Origin: Pseudarthrobacter defluvii
GTDB taxonomy: Bacteria > Actinomycetota > Actinomycetes > Actinomycetales > Micrococcaceae
Reading direction: 5' to 3'
DNA length: 64,000 nt
NCBI RefSeq assembly: GCF_030816725.1
Contig: NZ_JAUSYG010000001.1
Location: forward strand, 2,170,001 to 2,234,000
The translations under genes and the position numbers were made by a program. Below, piece after piece: positions 14,728 to 27,405 of the stretch. Numbering within the stretch: position 1 is the stretch's first letter; each line of letters opens with the position of its first letter. The notes beneath the pieces were generated by a model. That model had not been told where the DNA came from. It was given only the letters and a program-made list of their open reading frames with translations, and made no database searches.

Positions 14728-16013
<1,286 letters not shown>

Positions 16014-16802: not shown

Positions 16803-17272
16803 CGTCCAGTACGCAGCCGTAGGCCTCATCGATGCCATCATCCGTCGAGGAACGTTTGCCGACCTCGAGTACGTCCCCAAGCCCTCCTACGTACCGGACT
16901 CGAAGTCACCGGGACGGTCCGCGCCCTTGGGTAAGGGGTCACCGGTCTCTCAATCGGAGAGCACGTCGCAACGGTGGCCCTTCCCAACAGCGGAGGCTAC
17001 GCAGAAGTTGTGGCCGCCCCGGCCGCGCTGGTCGTCTCACTCGAAGCATCCGGCGTTGATCCGGTCCAGGTCGTGGCGGGACTCGGCAGCTCACCCTCCC
17101 GGTGAACGTCCTCACTTTGGAAAAAGCTGCCAAAGCACACGCACAAATGGAAGCACGGACCGTCACGGGCAGGCTGATTCTTGCCGTAAGCGGCCACCAA
17201 ACATTGGGAAGTACTGACAAGGTGGGGCACTCCCAGGCAGACCTCTCCCTTCCCGCATCCTCAAGTGAATGA
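16701..17272 (+). pseudogene. Zinc-independent MDR quinone oxidoreductase, decayed with internal deletion
   Basis: Starts MKSMSTTAYGGPKVIQEVHL, the N-terminus of an NADPH:quinone reductase. The frame shifts at the G-rich stretch near 16785, after which EITIDVQYAAVGLIDAIIRR reads on. It shifts again near 16905 and hits an in-frame TAA at 16930, then continues as LSIGEHVATVALPNSGGYAE and VSLEASGVDPVQVVAGLGS. The whole Rossmann domain is missing: the next sequence is the family's C-terminal tail (KAAKAHAQMEARTVTGRLIL). Intact relatives are about 320 residues; roughly 160 remain. It overlaps the 3' end of the flavodoxin-type reductase. Confidence 0.85.
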
Positions 17273-18017
17273 GTATCAAAACATGAACCATGAAAACCAA
17301 AAGAACATTATCGTCACAGGTGCCAGCAGTGGCATCGGGGCAGCCACCGCACGCGCGCTGGCGGCCCAGGGCCACAGGGTATTCCTCGGCGCGCGCCGTG
17401 AGGATGCACTGCGGACCCTCGTGTCTGACATCCAGCGCGATGGAGGCGAGGCAGAGTGCCGCCGACTCGACGTAACAGACCTTGCCGACTTCGAGGACTT
17501 CGTGGAAGCCGCCGAAGAGCGCTTTGGTCCGGTCGACGTTCTCGTGAACAACGCCGGTGTCATGCCGCTGTCCCCCGTGCATGATCTGCGCATCGAAGAG
17601 TGGAACTCCATGATCGATGTAAACCTGCGCGGCGTACTTCACGGTGTGGCAAGTGCTTTACCCGGCATGCGGTCCCGGCGGGCAGGCCACATCATCAATG
17701 TCGCCTCAGTCGCTGGCCTGCGCGTTGACCCGACCGCAGCAATCTACTGCGCCACAAAATACGCCGTCCGGGCCTTCTCTGAAGGGCTCCGCCAGGAGAA
17801 CACCGATGTGCGCGTAACCGTGGTTTCGCCCGGCTTCACGCTGACCGAACTAACGGACCGGGGCGGCAATCCCGAAGTCCAAGCGGCTGCCCACGCCGCA
17901 GCCGACCAGTTCGGGATTCCCGCTACAGCTGTGGCCGACGTTATCGCCTTTGCCGTCGCGCAGCCGGCAAATGTCGACATCAATGAGCTCGTCGTCCGGC
18001 CAACACTTCAGCAGTAG
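17265..18017 (+). CDS. Short-chain dehydrogenase/reductase
   Basis: Classical SDR, 250 residues (244 if the second ATG at 17283 is used). Cofactor motif TGASSGIG, structural NNAG, catalytic Ser in NVASVAG and YxxxK as YCATK. An acidic or basic selectivity residue (GARRED) suggests NADP(H). It closes the cluster started by the tautomerase and is followed by a strong hairpin. The substrate is unknown; the neighbourhood suggests a carbonyl or quinone-derived compound. Confidence 0.92.
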   Translation: MNEYQNMNHENQKNIIVTGASSGIGAATARALAAQGHRVFLGARREDALRTLVSDIQRDGGEAECRRLDVTDLADFEDFVEAAEERFGPVDVLVNNAGVMPLSPVHDLRIEEWNSMIDVNLRGVLHGVASALPGMRSRRAGHIINVASVAGLRVDPTAAIYCATKYAVRAFSEGLRQENTDVRVTVVSPGFTLTELTDRGGNPEVQAAAHAAADQFGIPATAVADVIAFAVAQPANVDINELVVRPTLQQ

Positions 18018-18234: not shown

Positions 18235-19089
18235 TCAGTACTTGTAGAAGCCCTCCCCCGAGGCGACGCCCAGCTTGCCCTGGTCGATGTAGTGCTCCTT
18301 CAGGTATTGGGCGAACGCCTGGGAACCGGCATCCGGCGAGGCCGAGGCGATGTTGTACGCCGTGGTGAGGCCGACGACGTCGTAGATCTGGAACGGTCCG
18401 CTCGGGGCCCCCGTCGCGATGCGCCAGGTCTTGTCAATGGTGTGCGGGTCGGCGACGCCCTGCAGCAGCAGGCCGGCGGCCGCGTTCAGCAGCGGAACCA
18501 GCAGCGAGTTCAGGACGTAGCCGGCCTTCTCCTTCTTGATCTCAATCGGTTCCAGTCCGCTGTTCCGGGCAAAGTCGACGACGGCGGCGTACACCGCCGG
18601 GTCCGTCTCCGCGGTGCCCATGACCTCGACGATGTTCTGCGCCCAGATGTTGTTGGCGTAATGGAGCGCGAGGAAGCGGTCCGGACGTCCGGTGAAGTCT
18701 TTCAGGTCGCTGGGCAGCAGGGTGGACGAGTTGGTCGCGAAGATGGCCTTGGCCGGCGCAAGCTCCGCGAGCTTGCGGTAGACGTCGCGTTTGAGTTCCA
18801 GCAGTTCGGGAACGGCTTCGATCACGAGGTCCGCGTCGACGACGGCGTCCCCGAGGTCTGCGGTGAGGCGGAGGTTTGCCAGGGCTGCTTCGGTCCTGCC
18901 CTCGGAGGCGCCGGCTACCTGTGCCCGGTAGATGCCGGCGAGGCGGGTGAAACGGTCCTGCGCCTTGGCAAGCGCGTGTTCGTCGACGTCGTAGGCGGTG
19001 ACCGCGAAACCGTGGAATGCGGCCTGGAACGCGATCTGGGAGCCGAGCACTCCGGTGCCGAGCACGGTGAGCGTCTTGATGGAGGGCAT
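18235..19089 (-). CDS. 3-hydroxyacyl-CoA dehydrogenase-like protein
   Basis: 284 residues, the size of 3-hydroxybutyryl-CoA dehydrogenase. N-terminal Rossmann fold with GTGVLGSQIA; catalytic block IFATNSSTLLPS and the His of LALHYANN, then the C-terminal dimerisation domain (AGYVLNSLLVPLLNAAAGLL, ending GEGFYKY). It oxidises 3-hydroxyacyl-CoA with NAD+ in beta-oxidation-type pathways. It lies 24 bp downstream of the TetR/EthR-like gene in the same direction, so repressor and dehydrogenase are probably co-transcribed and tied to the divergent monooxygenase. Confidence 0.9.
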   Translation of the reverse strand: MPSIKTLTVLGTGVLGSQIAFQAAFHGFAVTAYDVDEHALAKAQDRFTRLAGIYRAQVAGASEGRTEAALANLRLTADLGDAVVDADLVIEAVPELLELKRDVYRKLAELAPAKAIFATNSSTLLPSDLKDFTGRPDRFLALHYANNIWAQNIVEVMGTAETDPAVYAAVVDFARNSGLEPIEIKKEKAGYVLNSLLVPLLNAAAGLLLQGVADPHTIDKTWRIATGAPSGPFQIYDVVGLTTAYNIASASPDAGSQAFAQYLKEHYIDQGKLGVASGEGFYKY

Positions 19090-19113: not shown

Positions 19114-19746
19114 TTAGGGGCTGCCGGGGTTGTCGGACCCGTAAATGCTGCGGATCCAGATGGTTGACAGGACGTCCAGGGCGGCGGTCTCCGCGATGGC
19201 GGGACTCTCCCGGTTGAGGACAGCGGTAATGACCCGTTCGTTCATCAGGTTCAGGCTCACCGCGAGGGCGTGTGCGTCGATGCCCGCCGGCGCGGCCCCG
19301 CGGGCCTGCTCGGCACGGATGACGTCGCTTGAGAAGTCGACCCAGGACTGCATTGATCTGGACCACAGCCCGCGCACCTCGTCGTTGCGGGCGCGCGCCC
19401 CGATGGCGGCGGTCGACACAGCGCGGTGCGAGACAAACACCTCTACGAACATTCCGATGGAACGGGTCCATGCACCCGCGGGGTCGCTCTCGAAATCGCG
19501 CGGCAGGTGCCCCACCCGGTGCTCGACCTCGGTGATGACCCGGTCCAGCAGGGCCAGCAGCACGGCATCTTTCGAGGGGAAGTAGAAGTAGAACGTGGGA
19601 CGCGAAATGCCGGCACCCCGGGCCAGATCCTCGATGGAGACGTCGTCAAAGGCACGGCTGGCCAGGAGGGCCTCCGCGGTGACCAGGATTGCGTCCTGCC
19701 GTTCATCGCCCGAAACCCTCACGGTGCGTCTTCCTCTTTGAGCCAT
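19114..19746 (-). CDS. TetR-family repressor, EthR-like
   Basis: 210 residues. Helix-turn-helix at residues about 20-65 (DDVSIEDLARGAGISRPTFY, FYFPSKDAVLLALLD), a block typical of EthR. The C-terminal ligand domain is helical (AIGARARNDEVRGLWSRSMQ). It is divergent from a Baeyer-Villiger monooxygenase gene across 69 bp, the same arrangement as mycobacterial ethR/ethA, where EthR represses ethA. It probably represses both promoters through the palindromes at 19769-19803. Confidence 0.92.
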   Translation of the reverse strand: MAQRGRRTVRVSGDERQDAILVTAEALLASRAFDDVSIEDLARGAGISRPTFYFYFPSKDAVLLALLDRVITEVEHRVGHLPRDFESDPAGAWTRSIGMFVEVFVSHRAVSTAAIGARARNDEVRGLWSRSMQSWVDFSSDVIRAEQARGAAPAGIDAHALAVSLNLMNERVITAVLNRESPAIAETAALDVLSTIWIRSIYGSDNPGSP

Positions 19747-19768: not shown

Positions 19769-19803
19769 TCAACACTGTGTTGACTATCTCAACATTAAGT
19801 CGA
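19769..19803. promoter_or_regulatory. Twin palindromic operator for the EthR-like repressor
   Basis: Two 15-bp sites: TCAACACTGTGTTGA (19769-19783, perfect arms of 7) and TCAACATTAAGTCGA (19789-19803, degenerate), with centres 20 bp apart, about two helical turns. They fill the divergent promoter region. The second site and its flank (AGTCGATA) resemble the known ethA-ethR operator as I remember it. This suits cooperative TetR dimers. Confidence 0.7.
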
Positions 19804-19815
19804 TAACTTGGCGGC

Positions 19816-22224
19816 ATGAGCGAGCACGTAGATGTGTTGATTGTCGGCGCCGGGCTGAGCGGCGTGGGTTTCGCCAGCCGGCTGAAGCGCGAGGTACCCG
19901 GAAAAACCTTCACCGTACTGGAGTCGCGGAACGCCGTCGGGGGGACCTGGGACCTGTTCCGGTACCCCGGGATCCGGTCCGACAGCGACATGTACACGCT
20001 CGGCTACTCCTTCCGGCCCTGGGCCGGCGCCAAGGCGATCGCGGACGGCGAGTCCATCCGCGAGTACATCGAGGCAACGGTCGCCGACGAGGGCCTGGCG
20101 CCGCGGATCCGGCTGAACACCCGGGTCATTTCCGCCGCATGGTCAAGCGAAACCGCACTGTGGACCGTGACGGCGGTCCACACCTCCGGCGGCGAGTTCC
20201 GGTCCGGCGACACCGCCTCCTCCCCCGAGCCGGTCACCTTCACCTGCTCGTTCCTGTCCGTCTGTTCCGGCTACTACCGCTATGACGAGGGCTTCACCCC
20301 GGCCATTGACGGGGCCGACACCTTTGCCGGAACGATCGTCCACCCGCAGCACTGGCCGGCCGACCTCGATTATGAGGGAAAGCAGGTGGTGGTCATCGGC
20401 AGCGGCGCCACGGCCGTGACGCTGGTGCCGTCCATGGCAAAGTCGGCCGCCAAGGTGACGATGCTGCAGCGCTCCGCCACCTACATCGCCCCGGTGCCCG
20501 CGCGGGACCACCTGGCCGACCGACTCCGGGGCAAGCTGCCCGCGCAACTGGCGTACGACGTCGTACGCTCAAAGAACATTCTCTTCTCCATGTTCACCTA
20601 CCAGCTCAGCCGACGGCGGCCCGAGACGATGAAGGCGATCCTGCGCAAGTCGGCAGTAGCCAAACTGCCGGCGGGCTTCCCCGTGGACACGCACCTGGCC
20701 CCGTCGTACCAGCCGTGGGACCAGCGGGTCTGCGCGATCCCCAACGGGGACCTGTACCGGGCCATCAGTGCCGGCACTGCCGAGATCGTGACCGACACGA
20801 TCTCCCGGATCACCGAGGACGGGATTGACCTGGCCTCGGGCACATCGCTGCCCGCCGACGTCATTGTCACGGCCACGGGACTAAACTTGCTGGTGATCGG
20901 CGGCATGAAGCTCTCCGTCGACGGCGAGCCCGTGGACGTCGGCAGAACCCTCACCTACAAGGGCATGATGCTGGAGGGTGTCCCGAATTTCGCCCTAACC
21001 ATCGGCTACACCAACGCGTCCTGGACCCTGAAGGCGGACCTGGTCGCCGGCTACATCTGCAGGCTGATCAAGCAGCTCGACCGCCGGAACCTCCAGTGGG
21101 TGGTACCCGTGGCACCCGCCGACGTCGCCAACGGCACCCTGTCCTCGCTGATCGACCTGAAGGCCGGCTACATTTTCCGCGGCGCCGACCAGTTGCCCCG
21201 GCAGGGCGCAGGCTCGCCCTGGCGGCTGCACCAAAACTACTTCCGCGACTTCGCCCTGCTCCGGGCCGGCCGGCTGACCGACCACGTCCGGTTCGGCCGG
21301 CGCGGGCAGCCCGTGCGGGAAACCGTTCGGCAACCCGCGGCCCCGGCACGGGATCCCCTCGCGCTGCCGGGAACGGGCCATGTCACCGTCGCGGGGACGC
21401 GCCTGCGCTACCGGAAGACCGGCAGCGGGGATCCTGTCCTGCTGCTGCACGGCATTGGCCAGAGCCTCGAGGACTGGAACGAACAGCACGAGCGGCTCTC
21501 GGACCGCCACACGGTCTACAGCGTAGACCTTCCCGGCTTCGCCTACTCCGAACGGCTCCCCGGCACGACGACGCTCGCGAAGCTGGCCGGGATCCTGCCG
21601 GCCTTCCTGGACGCCGTCGGGGTTTCCGGGCCGCTGCCCGTGATGGGCAACTCGCTCGGCGGTGCCGTGGCCATGAAGCTGGCCGCCGACCATCCGGACC
21701 GCGTCTCCGCACTCGTGCTGGCCAACAGCGCCGGATTCGGCAAGGAAGTGGCCCTGGTCCTTCGCCTCCTTGCGGTCCGCCCGCTCGCGGCCCTGCTCCT
21801 GCGGCCCGACGAGAAAGCATCACGCCGGACCGTCCAGTCGCTCTTCTATGACAAAACGCTGGTCACGGACGACCGCATCGGCCACGCGCTCGCCCTGTCG
21901 CAACGGGAGGCGCACCGTCGGACGCTGGTCGACGTCGCCCGCGACCTGGGAACGATCTCCGGTGTCCGGTCCGAGTGGCGCACCGAGCTGATCGGGGCGC
22001 TCGCCAAGTCCGACGTTCCGGCGCTGGTGGTGTGGGGCGACCACGACCACATCCTGCCGTTCAGTCACCTTGAAGCGGCCGCCGCGGCGCTGCCCCGCGC
22101 CGAGTCGCACGTCTTCGCCAAGACCGGACACATGCCGCAGATCGAACGGCCCGACGAGTTCGCGGCCGTAGTCGAGGACTTCCTCACGAGGGTCTCCGTA
22201 GACCGTCAGGCTGCAAGCATCTAA
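19816..22224 (+). CDS. Baeyer-Villiger monooxygenase fused to an alpha/beta hydrolase
   Basis: 802 residues in one intact frame. Residues 1 to about 500 are an EthA-type flavin monooxygenase: FAD motif GAGLSG (11-16), ESRNAVGGTWDLFRYPGIRS, the Baeyer-Villiger fingerprint FAGTIVHPQHWP (170-181), a second nucleotide site VVVIGSGATAV and IVTATGLNLL. After a Pro/Arg-rich linker (about 495-520) comes a complete alpha/beta hydrolase: LLLHGIGQSLEDWNEQ, Ser613 in GNSLGG, Asp742 in WGDHDH, His772 in KTGHMPQ. The first half should insert oxygen into a ketone to give an ester, the second could hydrolyse it. It is divergent from the EthR-like repressor. Cytosolic. Confidence 0.93.
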   Translation: MSEHVDVLIVGAGLSGVGFASRLKREVPGKTFTVLESRNAVGGTWDLFRYPGIRSDSDMYTLGYSFRPWAGAKAIADGESIREYIEATVADEGLAPRIRLNTRVISAAWSSETALWTVTAVHTSGGEFRSGDTASSPEPVTFTCSFLSVCSGYYRYDEGFTPAIDGADTFAGTIVHPQHWPADLDYEGKQVVVIGSGATAVTLVPSMAKSAAKVTMLQRSATYIAPVPARDHLADRLRGKLPAQLAYDVVRSKNILFSMFTYQLSRRRPETMKAILRKSAVAKLPAGFPVDTHLAPSYQPWDQRVCAIPNGDLYRAISAGTAEIVTDTISRITEDGIDLASGTSLPADVIVTATGLNLLVIGGMKLSVDGEPVDVGRTLTYKGMMLEGVPNFALTIGYTNASWTLKADLVAGYICRLIKQLDRRNLQWVVPVAPADVANGTLSSLIDLKAGYIFRGADQLPRQGAGSPWRLHQNYFRDFALLRAGRLTDHVRFGRRGQPVRETVRQPAAPARDPLALPGTGHVTVAGTRLRYRKTGSGDPVLLLHGIGQSLEDWNEQHERLSDRHTVYSVDLPGFAYSERLPGTTTLAKLAGILPAFLDAVGVSGPLPVMGNSLGGAVAMKLAADHPDRVSALVLANSAGFGKEVALVLRLLAVRPLAALLLRPDEKASRRTVQSLFYDKTLVTDDRIGHALALSQREAHRRTLVDVARDLGTISGVRSEWRTELIGALAKSDVPALVVWGDHDHILPFSHLEAAAAALPRAESHVFAKTGHMPQIERPDEFAAVVEDFLTRVSVDRQAASI

Positions 22225-23077: not shown

Positions 23078-24001
23078 TCACGTAAGCACGCCGTTCGGCA
23101 GCACGGCGTGCACCCCCCAGACCTGGTTCGCGACCTGGGTTACCCGCAGATCGACGACAGTGCCCGCGAGGGCGAGTGCCGTGGGCTTATCCACCGAGTA
23201 GATCGTGGTCATCCAGGTCACCATGGCATCCAGAGCATCACCCATCGCGAGGTTGAGGTCTTCGTTGAAGCCGAAGGTAATTTTGCCGCCGGGCGACTCG
23301 GCGTGGAGCGCCGCGACTGGCCGGTCCTGCACGATCTCGACGATGGCCTCGGTGCGCATGGGGCACTCGATGGCTGTGCCGCCGACCTCACCGTCGCCCT
23401 GGGCGGCGTGACCGTCGCCGAGATAGAGCAGCGCGTCGGGCACCGCGACCGGGATGTAGAGGGTAGAGCCTGCCACGAGCTCGCGGCAGTCGATGTTGCC
23501 GGCGGTCGCGGCGCGCGGAGGGATGGTCGAATGCTCGCCCTCTTCCGCGGGGGCGAGTCCCATCACCCCGAGGAATGGCGCGAGCGAACGGCGGAAGCCG
23601 CGGCTCTCCGTGGCCGTACCGAGCTCGCAGTCGAGGTCCCACAGCAGCCACGACGGCGCGTCCGTGCCGACTTCGAGCCGCTTTGTGATCGGGGATTCGC
23701 GGGCACCGGCAACGGTCCATTCCCATTCCCCCGGGCGGAGATCGACGAGGTGCAGCGCGAGGATGTCGCCCGGCATCGCTCCCCGGATCGCGATGGGTCC
23801 GGTGAGGCAGTGTCCCCGCCGCTCAGCGAACATGCGGGGTTGCTGCTCCCCCGGCGTCGTCTGCCGGGAAAGGTAGCCCGACGCGTCCAAGGAACCCACG
23901 ACTATCGTGTCCCCCGGATCGACGACGAGTACCGGGCCATGGGCCGGCGAATACGCGTCTGCGGTGGTTTCGGGCGCGGCGTGGAGCCTGTGGATCGCCA
24001 T
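23078..24001 (-). CDS. Acetamidase/formamidase-family amidohydrolase
   Basis: 307 residues, FmdA_AmdA family. Typical blocks: PVLVVDPGDTIVVGSLDASG, LTGPIAIRGAMPGDILALHL, GNIDCRELVAGSTLYIPV and the strongly conserved LYLGDGHAAQGDGEVGGTAI. It hydrolyses short-chain amides to the acid and ammonia in the cytoplasm. It stands alone between two repeat copies and its neighbours give no pathway. Confidence 0.92.
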   Translation of the reverse strand: MAIHRLHAAPETTADAYSPAHGPVLVVDPGDTIVVGSLDASGYLSRQTTPGEQQPRMFAERRGHCLTGPIAIRGAMPGDILALHLVDLRPGEWEWTVAGARESPITKRLEVGTDAPSWLLWDLDCELGTATESRGFRRSLAPFLGVMGLAPAEEGEHSTIPPRAATAGNIDCRELVAGSTLYIPVAVPDALLYLGDGHAAQGDGEVGGTAIECPMRTEAIVEIVQDRPVAALHAESPGGKITFGFNEDLNLAMGDALDAMVTWMTTIYSVDKPTALALAGTVVDLRVTQVANQVWGVHAVLPNGVLT

Positions 24002-26556: not shown

Positions 26557-27405
26557 TTAGCCGGGCACCTTTACGTCGGTGACCAGCCTGGCTACATGGA
26601 GGGCGAGGTAGGCCATTTCATCCCGGGTGAGGGTGGTGTTCAGGCCCATTTCGAGCAGGTACTGGATTTTCGCTGCGCACACGACTGCGTCCGGATGGCT
26701 CTCGATGATGGCGTCGGCCAGCAGGGATGACTCCTCGGAGATCTGTTTTCCGGAGGCTATCCGGCTGAACAGGTACCGCAGGTGGGTGACGAACCGGGCG
26801 GCGTTCATGGACTGCTGGTCCACGTCAATACCGAAGGTCCGGTCGACCAGTTGAAAGGCCTGCTTTATCACCCCTGTCATTTGCATGGTCTTTTCCATGC
26901 CGGGGGTGGCGAACTGAGCGTTGACGAAGTGCATGGCCAGGGCGACGGCTTCGTCGTCATCCAACCGGATACCGAGCGAGGTCTCGACAAGACCTAGAGC
27001 CTCACGGCCCGTGTCCAGTTCCTTTGGGTAGAGCTGGGACACTTCCCATGCCAGGGGGAATTGGGCGGGGATTCCTTCTTCGATCCGTTGCACGGCGAAG
27101 TGCAGGTGATCAGCCAGTGGTACTACCAATGCCTGGCTGACTCTTAGCCCGAGGCGTTCCTGCGCCAGCGCGGCCACTTCGCCTGCGGCGGTCAGGTAGT
27201 CCAGCGGGATGTCATTCAGGAACCGCGCCAGGCGGTCCATGTTGGTGTTTTCGGCCGTGACAAACACTTGGTCCGCGGTGTCGCGGTGAATGTCATCACC
27301 GGGTTTGCGGCCGTGCCCAAGGCCCCGGCCGATCGCAACCAGATCCTTGCCGTCATCATCGACTGCCAGCACGGCGTTGTTGTTGAGCACGCGCTTGATC
27401 TTCAC
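26557..27405 (-). CDS. BglG/LicT-family transcriptional antiterminator
   Basis: 282 residues from GTG 27405 with GGAAGGA upstream. The N-terminal co-antiterminator RNA-binding domain (MKIKRVLNNNAVLAVDDDGK, VAIGRGLGHGRKPGD) is followed by two PRD domains with their His residues in LADHLHFAVQRI and ALAMHFVNAQ (PRD1) and RFVTHLRYLF and LALHVARL (PRD2). It would bind an RAT hairpin in nascent mRNA to prevent termination, controlled by EII and HPr phosphorylation. Its former operon partner, a 6-phospho-beta-glucosidase, is truncated just upstream. Confidence 0.94.
   Translation of the reverse strand: MKIKRVLNNNAVLAVDDDGKDLVAIGRGLGHGRKPGDDIHRDTADQVFVTAENTNMDRLARFLNDIPLDYLTAAGEVAALAQERLGLRVSQALVVPLADHLHFAVQRIEEGIPAQFPLAWEVSQLYPKELDTGREALGLVETSLGIRLDDDEAVALAMHFVNAQFATPGMEKTMQMTGVIKQAFQLVDRTFGIDVDQQSMNAARFVTHLRYLFSRIASGKQISEESSLLADAIIESHPDAVVCAAKIQYLLEMGLNTTLTRDEMAYLALHVARLVTDVKVPG

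Follow-up and report, generated by a model that had tools for sequence, protein, structure and literature searches.

A natural fusion of an EthA-type Baeyer-Villiger monooxygenase with an alpha/beta hydrolase, a probable single enzyme for ketone cleavage

The window analysed here is a 64,000-nucleotide stretch of the genome of Pseudarthrobacter defluvii, and all positions refer to it. At 19816-22224 on the forward strand it carries a gene whose 802-amino-acid product joins an EthA-type Baeyer-Villiger monooxygenase (BVMO; residues 1-490, 19816-21285) to an alpha/beta hydrolase (residues 523-802, 21382-22221) through a linker (residues 491-522, 21286-21381). This fused gene diverges from an orthologue of ethR, which encodes a TetR-family regulator (19114-19746, reverse strand), and behind ethR lies a gene of the 3-hydroxyacyl-coenzyme A (CoA) dehydrogenase (3HCDH) family (18235-19089, reverse strand). 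An earlier note on this DNA, made from its letters and open reading frames (ORFs), had described the fused gene as a single intact frame of 802 codons. This was confirmed, with 802 open codons and one stop at the end.

The BVMO half was assigned from Pfam, from sequence and fold matches in the PDB and from its position in a tree. Pfam models of flavin monooxygenases match it (NAD_binding_8 with 37.0 bits, FMO-like with 29.5 bits), and all 50 Foldseek matches listed are BVMO-type by title, for example 4ap3 with a target TM-score (TMt) of 0.71. Type I BVMOs carry the fingerprint FxGxxxHxxxWP between two Rossmann motifs. The fingerprint on which the earlier note had based its EthA-type assignment, FAGTIVHPQHWP, was indeed found at residues 170-181 (20323-20358), and the half contains two GxGxxG/A motifs, GAGLSG at residues 11-16 and GSGATA at residues 195-200. 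In an alignment of 84 fused proteins, the G, H, W and P of the fingerprint are kept in all 84 and its F in 83, and the Rossmann positions counted (11, 13, 16, 195, 197 and 200) are invariant. Arg304 (20725-20727), in the motif PWDQR, is also invariant in these 84 proteins and is likely the active-site arginine; the weak alignment to a solved BVMO in the PDB is off by one residue at this place.

The linker is variable: none of its 32 positions is invariant in the aligned fused proteins, and model confidence is low at residues 503-509. Beyond it, Abhydrolase_1 matches residues 540-779 with 107.8 bits in Pfam, and fold matches extend over residues 512-795. Ser613 (21652-21654), in the motif GNSLGG, is the predicted nucleophile, Asp744 (22045-22047) the predicted catalytic acid and His772 (22129-22131) the predicted catalytic histidine. 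All three are invariant in the 84 proteins, they follow the order Ser-Asp-His, and the alignment to HsaD agrees with them, Asp744 falling in the column of the residue that we take to be the catalytic acid of HsaD. The triad proposed in the earlier note was Ser613, Asp742 and His772. Its serine and histidine stand, but the acid is Asp744, position 742 being D in 79 proteins, T in 3, A in 1 and N in 1. The structure predicted for the whole protein has a predicted local distance difference test score (pLDDT) of 84.2 and a predicted template-modelling score (pTM) of 0.62. As judged from these residues, both active sites are intact in the fused protein.

As the earlier note had suggested, we searched databases for homologues with this domain order. 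Among the 120 listed, of 7997 scored, 118 span at least 97% of the fused protein, with 63-99% identity. Within the genus, 20 of 101 genomes gave matches at E ≤ 1e-60; these are 16 intact fusions (the genome of the window included), two broken copies and two BVMOs that are more distant and not joined to their hydrolases (G732 and G715). In one broken copy (L067, genome G675) the BVMO part is split over two ORFs and the hydrolase lies in a third; in the other (L065, genome G658) the C-terminal part no longer shares the frame of the rest. Either a sequencing error or real decay could account for these two copies, and they show that frame errors or decay do occur in the fused gene, which is the one point in favour of reading the fusion itself as a sequencing or assembly error in its own genome. 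That explanation has a negligible probability and is ruled out by the full-length homologues and the intact copies in 16 of the 101 congeneric genomes; the main fused clade, moreover, reaches from relatives of Arthrobacter to Microbacteriaceae such as Subtercola. The concern raised in the earlier note, that the halves might normally be separate genes joined here by error, was thus half right: they are separate in many relatives, but the fusion is inherited across a clade. Among 17 genes of the genus, the median dN/dS (ratio of nonsynonymous to synonymous substitution rates) is 0.114 for the BVMO half (131 pairs), 0.188 for the hydrolase half (130 pairs) and 0.33 for the linker (123 pairs). Both halves are therefore under purifying selection, the hydrolase somewhat less than the BVMO.

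A tree of 159 BVMO halves, which omits 10 near-copies, broken or duplicate loci, places the main fused clade (30 rows) in one group nested among unfused BVMOs, with a support of 100 in the Shimodaira-Hasegawa-like approximate likelihood ratio test (SH-aLRT). A second fused clade, also with SH-aLRT 100, consists of four BVMO halves from another genus (L150-L153). Two further genomes of that genus, G143 and G157, also match and lie outside the loci analysed. L166 and L183, whose BVMOs group with this clade (SH-aLRT 98), have separate hydrolase genes next to those BVMOs, and the hydrolase of the second clade shares 50-61% identity with them. Its identity to the hydrolase of the window is 27% over 312 amino acids (L150) or 35% over 110 amino acids (L151). 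One origin for the main clade and L150-L153 was ruled out by the approximately unbiased test (p-AU 0.00075). By these trees and identities, an EthA-like BVMO was joined independently a second time, to a hydrolase of another family. A third such event is likely in Rhodococcus phenolicus (L075), whose BVMO is also fused, to a hydrolase 44% identical to that of the window, and which stands apart from the main clade in both half-trees; a single clade of L075 and the main group has a log-likelihood lower by 22.97 and a p-AU of 0.0956, so that a shared origin is not rejected. The groups for these topology tests were chosen after the first tree had been seen. The hydrolase-half tree keeps eight fused loci, with 13 listed fused homologues added, and omits stretches of less than 200 amino acids (L150-L153, L121 and L154) as well as L130, L065 and L067. 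Same-strain duplicates from two collections stay in some counts, for example L111 and L180. In L167 (4018-7527) and L168, genes for an EthA-like BVMO, a 3HCDH and an Abhydrolase_3 hydrolase of the hormone-sensitive lipase (HSL) type stand in a row; this hydrolase, for which Pfam was run on L167 only, is a third kind found near an EthA-like BVMO. Of all the sequence evidence that the hydrolase would act on what the oxidase makes, the strongest is that one kind of oxidase has different hydrolase families next to it or fused to it.

These observations lead us to propose, with a probability of about 0.72, that the fused protein is one enzyme converting a ketone via an ester to an acid and an alcohol. 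Its N-terminal half would act as a type I BVMO of the EthA subfamily that makes an ester from a ketone with the help of FAD, NADPH and O2, the ketone probably being aliphatic and of medium or long chain, and its C-terminal half would cut that ester to acid and alcohol by means of Ser613, Asp744 and His772. Joining the pair would fix their ratio and keep the second enzyme near the first; the ester might be passed on by channelling or by simple diffusion, either being possible. The reading of the fusion as a BVMO followed by an esterase-type hydrolase, already put forward in the earlier note, is supported by the domain content, the two intact active sites and the purifying selection on both halves, as well as by the second independent fusion and by the adjacency of the two genes in relatives.

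This adjacency was examined at two taxonomic levels. At the level of the order, the full protein finds a match in 53 of 297 genomes (E ≤ 1e-60) and the hydrolase half in 12 (E ≤ 1e-40). In two of these 12 the hydrolase is fused, and in the other ten it lies on the same strand downstream of an EthA-like BVMO gene; three of the ten unfused pairs (G041, G113 and G064) have a gap of about 1 kb that holds a short-chain dehydrogenase/reductase (SDR) gene. At the level of the class the hydrolase was found in 12 of 394 genomes, two of which are also in the order sample. Within the order the hydrolase is strictly linked to the BVMO; further afield the linkage loosens. Where the two are separate genes, their ORFs can overlap by 4-8 bp (L161, L162, L163, L165 and L166), which may reflect the choice of start, since the start codons of neighbouring ORFs were assigned mechanically.

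Several observations weigh against the proposed two-step enzyme. At the order level, 41 of the 53 genomes matching the full protein lack a match to the hydrolase half at the threshold used. At the class level, the hydrolase is fused to, or downstream of, an EthA-like BVMO in only six of the 12 genomes (G000, G041, G477, G298, G444 and G508). It follows a 3HCDH-family gene in three others (G329, G346 and G377); in G437 a different flavin monooxygenase gene lies nearby, divergent and with one gene between; and in the remaining two (G624 and G581) no EthA-like BVMO was found within about 5-6 kb on either side, the only BVMO-like stretch in G581 lying about 5.5 kb from the hydrolase and none being seen in G624. 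By sequence, the nearest hydrolases of solved structure cut C-C bonds, and among the 25 NCBIfam matches listed for the fused protein none reaches its cut-off; for both reasons esterase action is a matter of inference. Finally, since EthA also acts on thioamide prodrugs, the oxidase half may have substrates other than ketones.

The class-level genomes in which the hydrolase lies away from an EthA-like BVMO, three of them with the hydrolase directly after a 3HCDH-family gene, would be expected if the two halves shared a pathway without acting on one molecule in sequence. The hydrolase would then cut another compound made or used elsewhere, such as a lactone, a CoA or acyl ester or a C-C bond, and the fusion would only secure joint expression. 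The best structural and sequence neighbours, which include C-C bond hydrolases, epoxide hydrolases and dehalogenases, point the same way. Epoxide hydrolases and dehalogenases use an aspartate nucleophile, whereas that of the fused protein is a serine, and the residue after the catalytic histidine is Met773 where HsaD has a tryptophan. Joint expression without a shared substrate also sits poorly with the order-level hydrolases, all 12 of which are fused to or downstream of the BVMO, and with the independent fusion of a second, unrelated hydrolase family to an EthA-like BVMO. We consider this explanation unlikely.

In three loci of family f31 (L204, L205 and L206) an orthologue of the hydrolase gene follows a 3HCDH-family gene, and no EthA-like BVMO was found in flanks of about 2.6-6 kb. 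This arrangement raises the possibility that the hydrolase and the dehydrogenase share a substrate without a BVMO. In L202 (5843-9262) an orthologue lies near the gene of a different flavin monooxygenase of 541 amino acids, on the opposite strand and with one gene between.

The EthR of the window was identified by EthR_C (138.1 bits, cut-off 27), and its gene, absent from the earlier note, sits between those of the 3HCDH and the fused protein. The 3HCDH gene is assigned by NF006143 (406 bits, cut-off 312), which upholds the identity given to it in that note. Of 23 main-clade loci, 22 have both genes next to the fused gene, the exception being L066; three of the 23 are apparently repeats of genomes already counted. 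A wider conserved operon was ruled out: in a comparison with five named fused loci, the 3HCDH gene, ethR and the fused gene were the only genes recognisably in common. For an alpha/beta hydrolase gene (15183-16013), a KefF-like gene and an SDR gene lying beyond the 3HCDH gene (17265-18017), no counterpart was found in these five at E ≤ 1e-15 and more than 40% identity. Downstream of the fused gene lies an acetamidase/formamidase family gene (23078-24001, reverse strand; FmdA_AmdA, 107.6 bits), with no link seen. The protein encoded at 26557-27405 (reverse strand) presumably resembles an antiterminator of the BglG/LicT type.

An SDR gene on the same strand lies within about 2.6 kb of the BVMO gene in 34 of 119 BVMO loci (L070-L189; L130, on the same contig as L156, was dropped from this count), downstream in 33 and upstream only in L101. 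It directly follows the fused gene in all four loci of the second fused clade and was found in none of five long loci examined from the main clade. A dehydrogenase gene, of the SDR or 3HCDH family, is thus often part of the BVMO-hydrolase set. This recurrence suggests a route that begins with a dehydrogenase of either family: an alcohol would be oxidised to a ketone, the ketone turned into an ester and the ester split into acid and alcohol. The earlier note had taken the adjoining dehydrogenase as a sign that the acid enters beta-oxidation. This went unsupported, the recurring SDR or 3HCDH genes fitting an upstream step from alcohol to ketone at least as well; the 3HCDH could equally act after cleavage, as that note had it.

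The frequent dehydrogenase genes (SDR in 34 of 119 loci, 3HCDH in 22 of 23 fused loci) also fit alcohol and ketone catabolism better than a second alternative, in which the oxidase half is mainly S- or N-oxidising or handles xenobiotics, as EthA does with thioamide drugs, with the hydrolase as a detoxifying esterase at its side. Ethionamide is activated by EthA (PMC5403819), and control by EthR would be common to both systems; the BVMO fingerprint, on the other side, is intact. We regard this alternative as improbable.

The EthR of the window matches that of Mycobacterium tuberculosis with 209 bits over residues 3-209 of 210, and the unit is probably controlled by the divergent EthR and probably co-transcribed. 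Candidate operator-like repeats (TCRAC/GTYGA, 19769-19805) lie in the 69 bp that separate ethR from the fused gene. A similar arrangement lies between ethR and the BVMO gene in Mycobacterium (L126 and L125), is less complete in L129 and is present in part in Subtercola (L073 and L074). L066, which has no ethR, has no repeats either. Each of the eight intergenic regions compared holds 3-5 half-sites, a number matched by at most 0.6% of 2000 base shuffles; these statistics are descriptive only, because the pattern was chosen after seeing the sequences.

The M. tuberculosis EthR with hexadecyl octanoate bound cannot bind its DNA, and the physiological role of EthA was called unknown in 2017 (PMC5403819). 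A fatty ester belongs to the product class expected of the BVMO and to the substrate class expected of the hydrolase. For this reason we tentatively raise the idea, doubtful as it is, that outside mycobacteria the ethA-ethR unit is an inducible module for ketone cleavage (dehydrogenase, BVMO and hydrolase) in which EthR senses the long-chain ester made by the BVMO. The fused hydrolase would then remove both intermediate and inducer, one polypeptide making and erasing its own signal. If true, the EthA family would gain a physiological role, and the binding of a fatty ester by EthR would have an explanation.

The earlier note knew of no characterised natural fusion of this kind, and no description of a natural BVMO-hydrolase fusion was found in the open-access literature searched. 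In some source annotations of homologues the two halves are already named together for a single protein, so that the architecture is present in databases, though, within the reach of these searches, apparently undescribed in that literature. Its repeated natural joining offers ready two-step catalysts for ketone cleavage, and the fused clade ties the EthA/EthR family, whose natural role was called unknown in 2017 (PMC5403819), to a concrete, testable reaction.

Among known systems, the mycobacterial EthA-EthR locus shares with the window the divergent ethR orthologue, with similar candidate operator-like repeats between the genes, and the EthA-like BVMO from Mycobacterium persicum (L126) and the BVMO half of the window share 53% identity. 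The mycobacterial BVMO is a single-domain protein of 489 amino acids, whereas the protein of the window has 802 with its fused hydrolase, and the window has a 3HCDH gene after ethR. No such hydrolase was found downstream, over up to 3.5 kb, in L125, L126, L129, L146 (about 0.8 kb only) and L178. HsaD, a C-C bond hydrolase acting on meta-cleavage products, is set apart by its tryptophan after the catalytic histidine, and the window protein scores 106.7 bits against a cut-off of 400 for the HsaD model.

The closest functional parallels, compared by description only, are pairs of separate proteins. In Gordonia sp. TY-5, AcmA and AcmB convert acetone via methyl acetate to methanol and acetate (PMC6215540); as proposed for the window, a BVMO and an esterase, here encoded in one operon, take a ketone via an ester to acid and alcohol, but they do so as two proteins and on small ketones. 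The BVMO SadD with the esterases SadA and SadB follows the same two-step logic in the oxidation of long 2-ketones, again as separate proteins (PMC12753306). In Thalassolituus grown on a C28 alkane, an EthA-like BVMO and an esterase rise together (PMC6304351). The literature considered also includes PMC9044951, PMC13101518 and PMC8512331. Teamwork of a BVMO and an esterase is already known.
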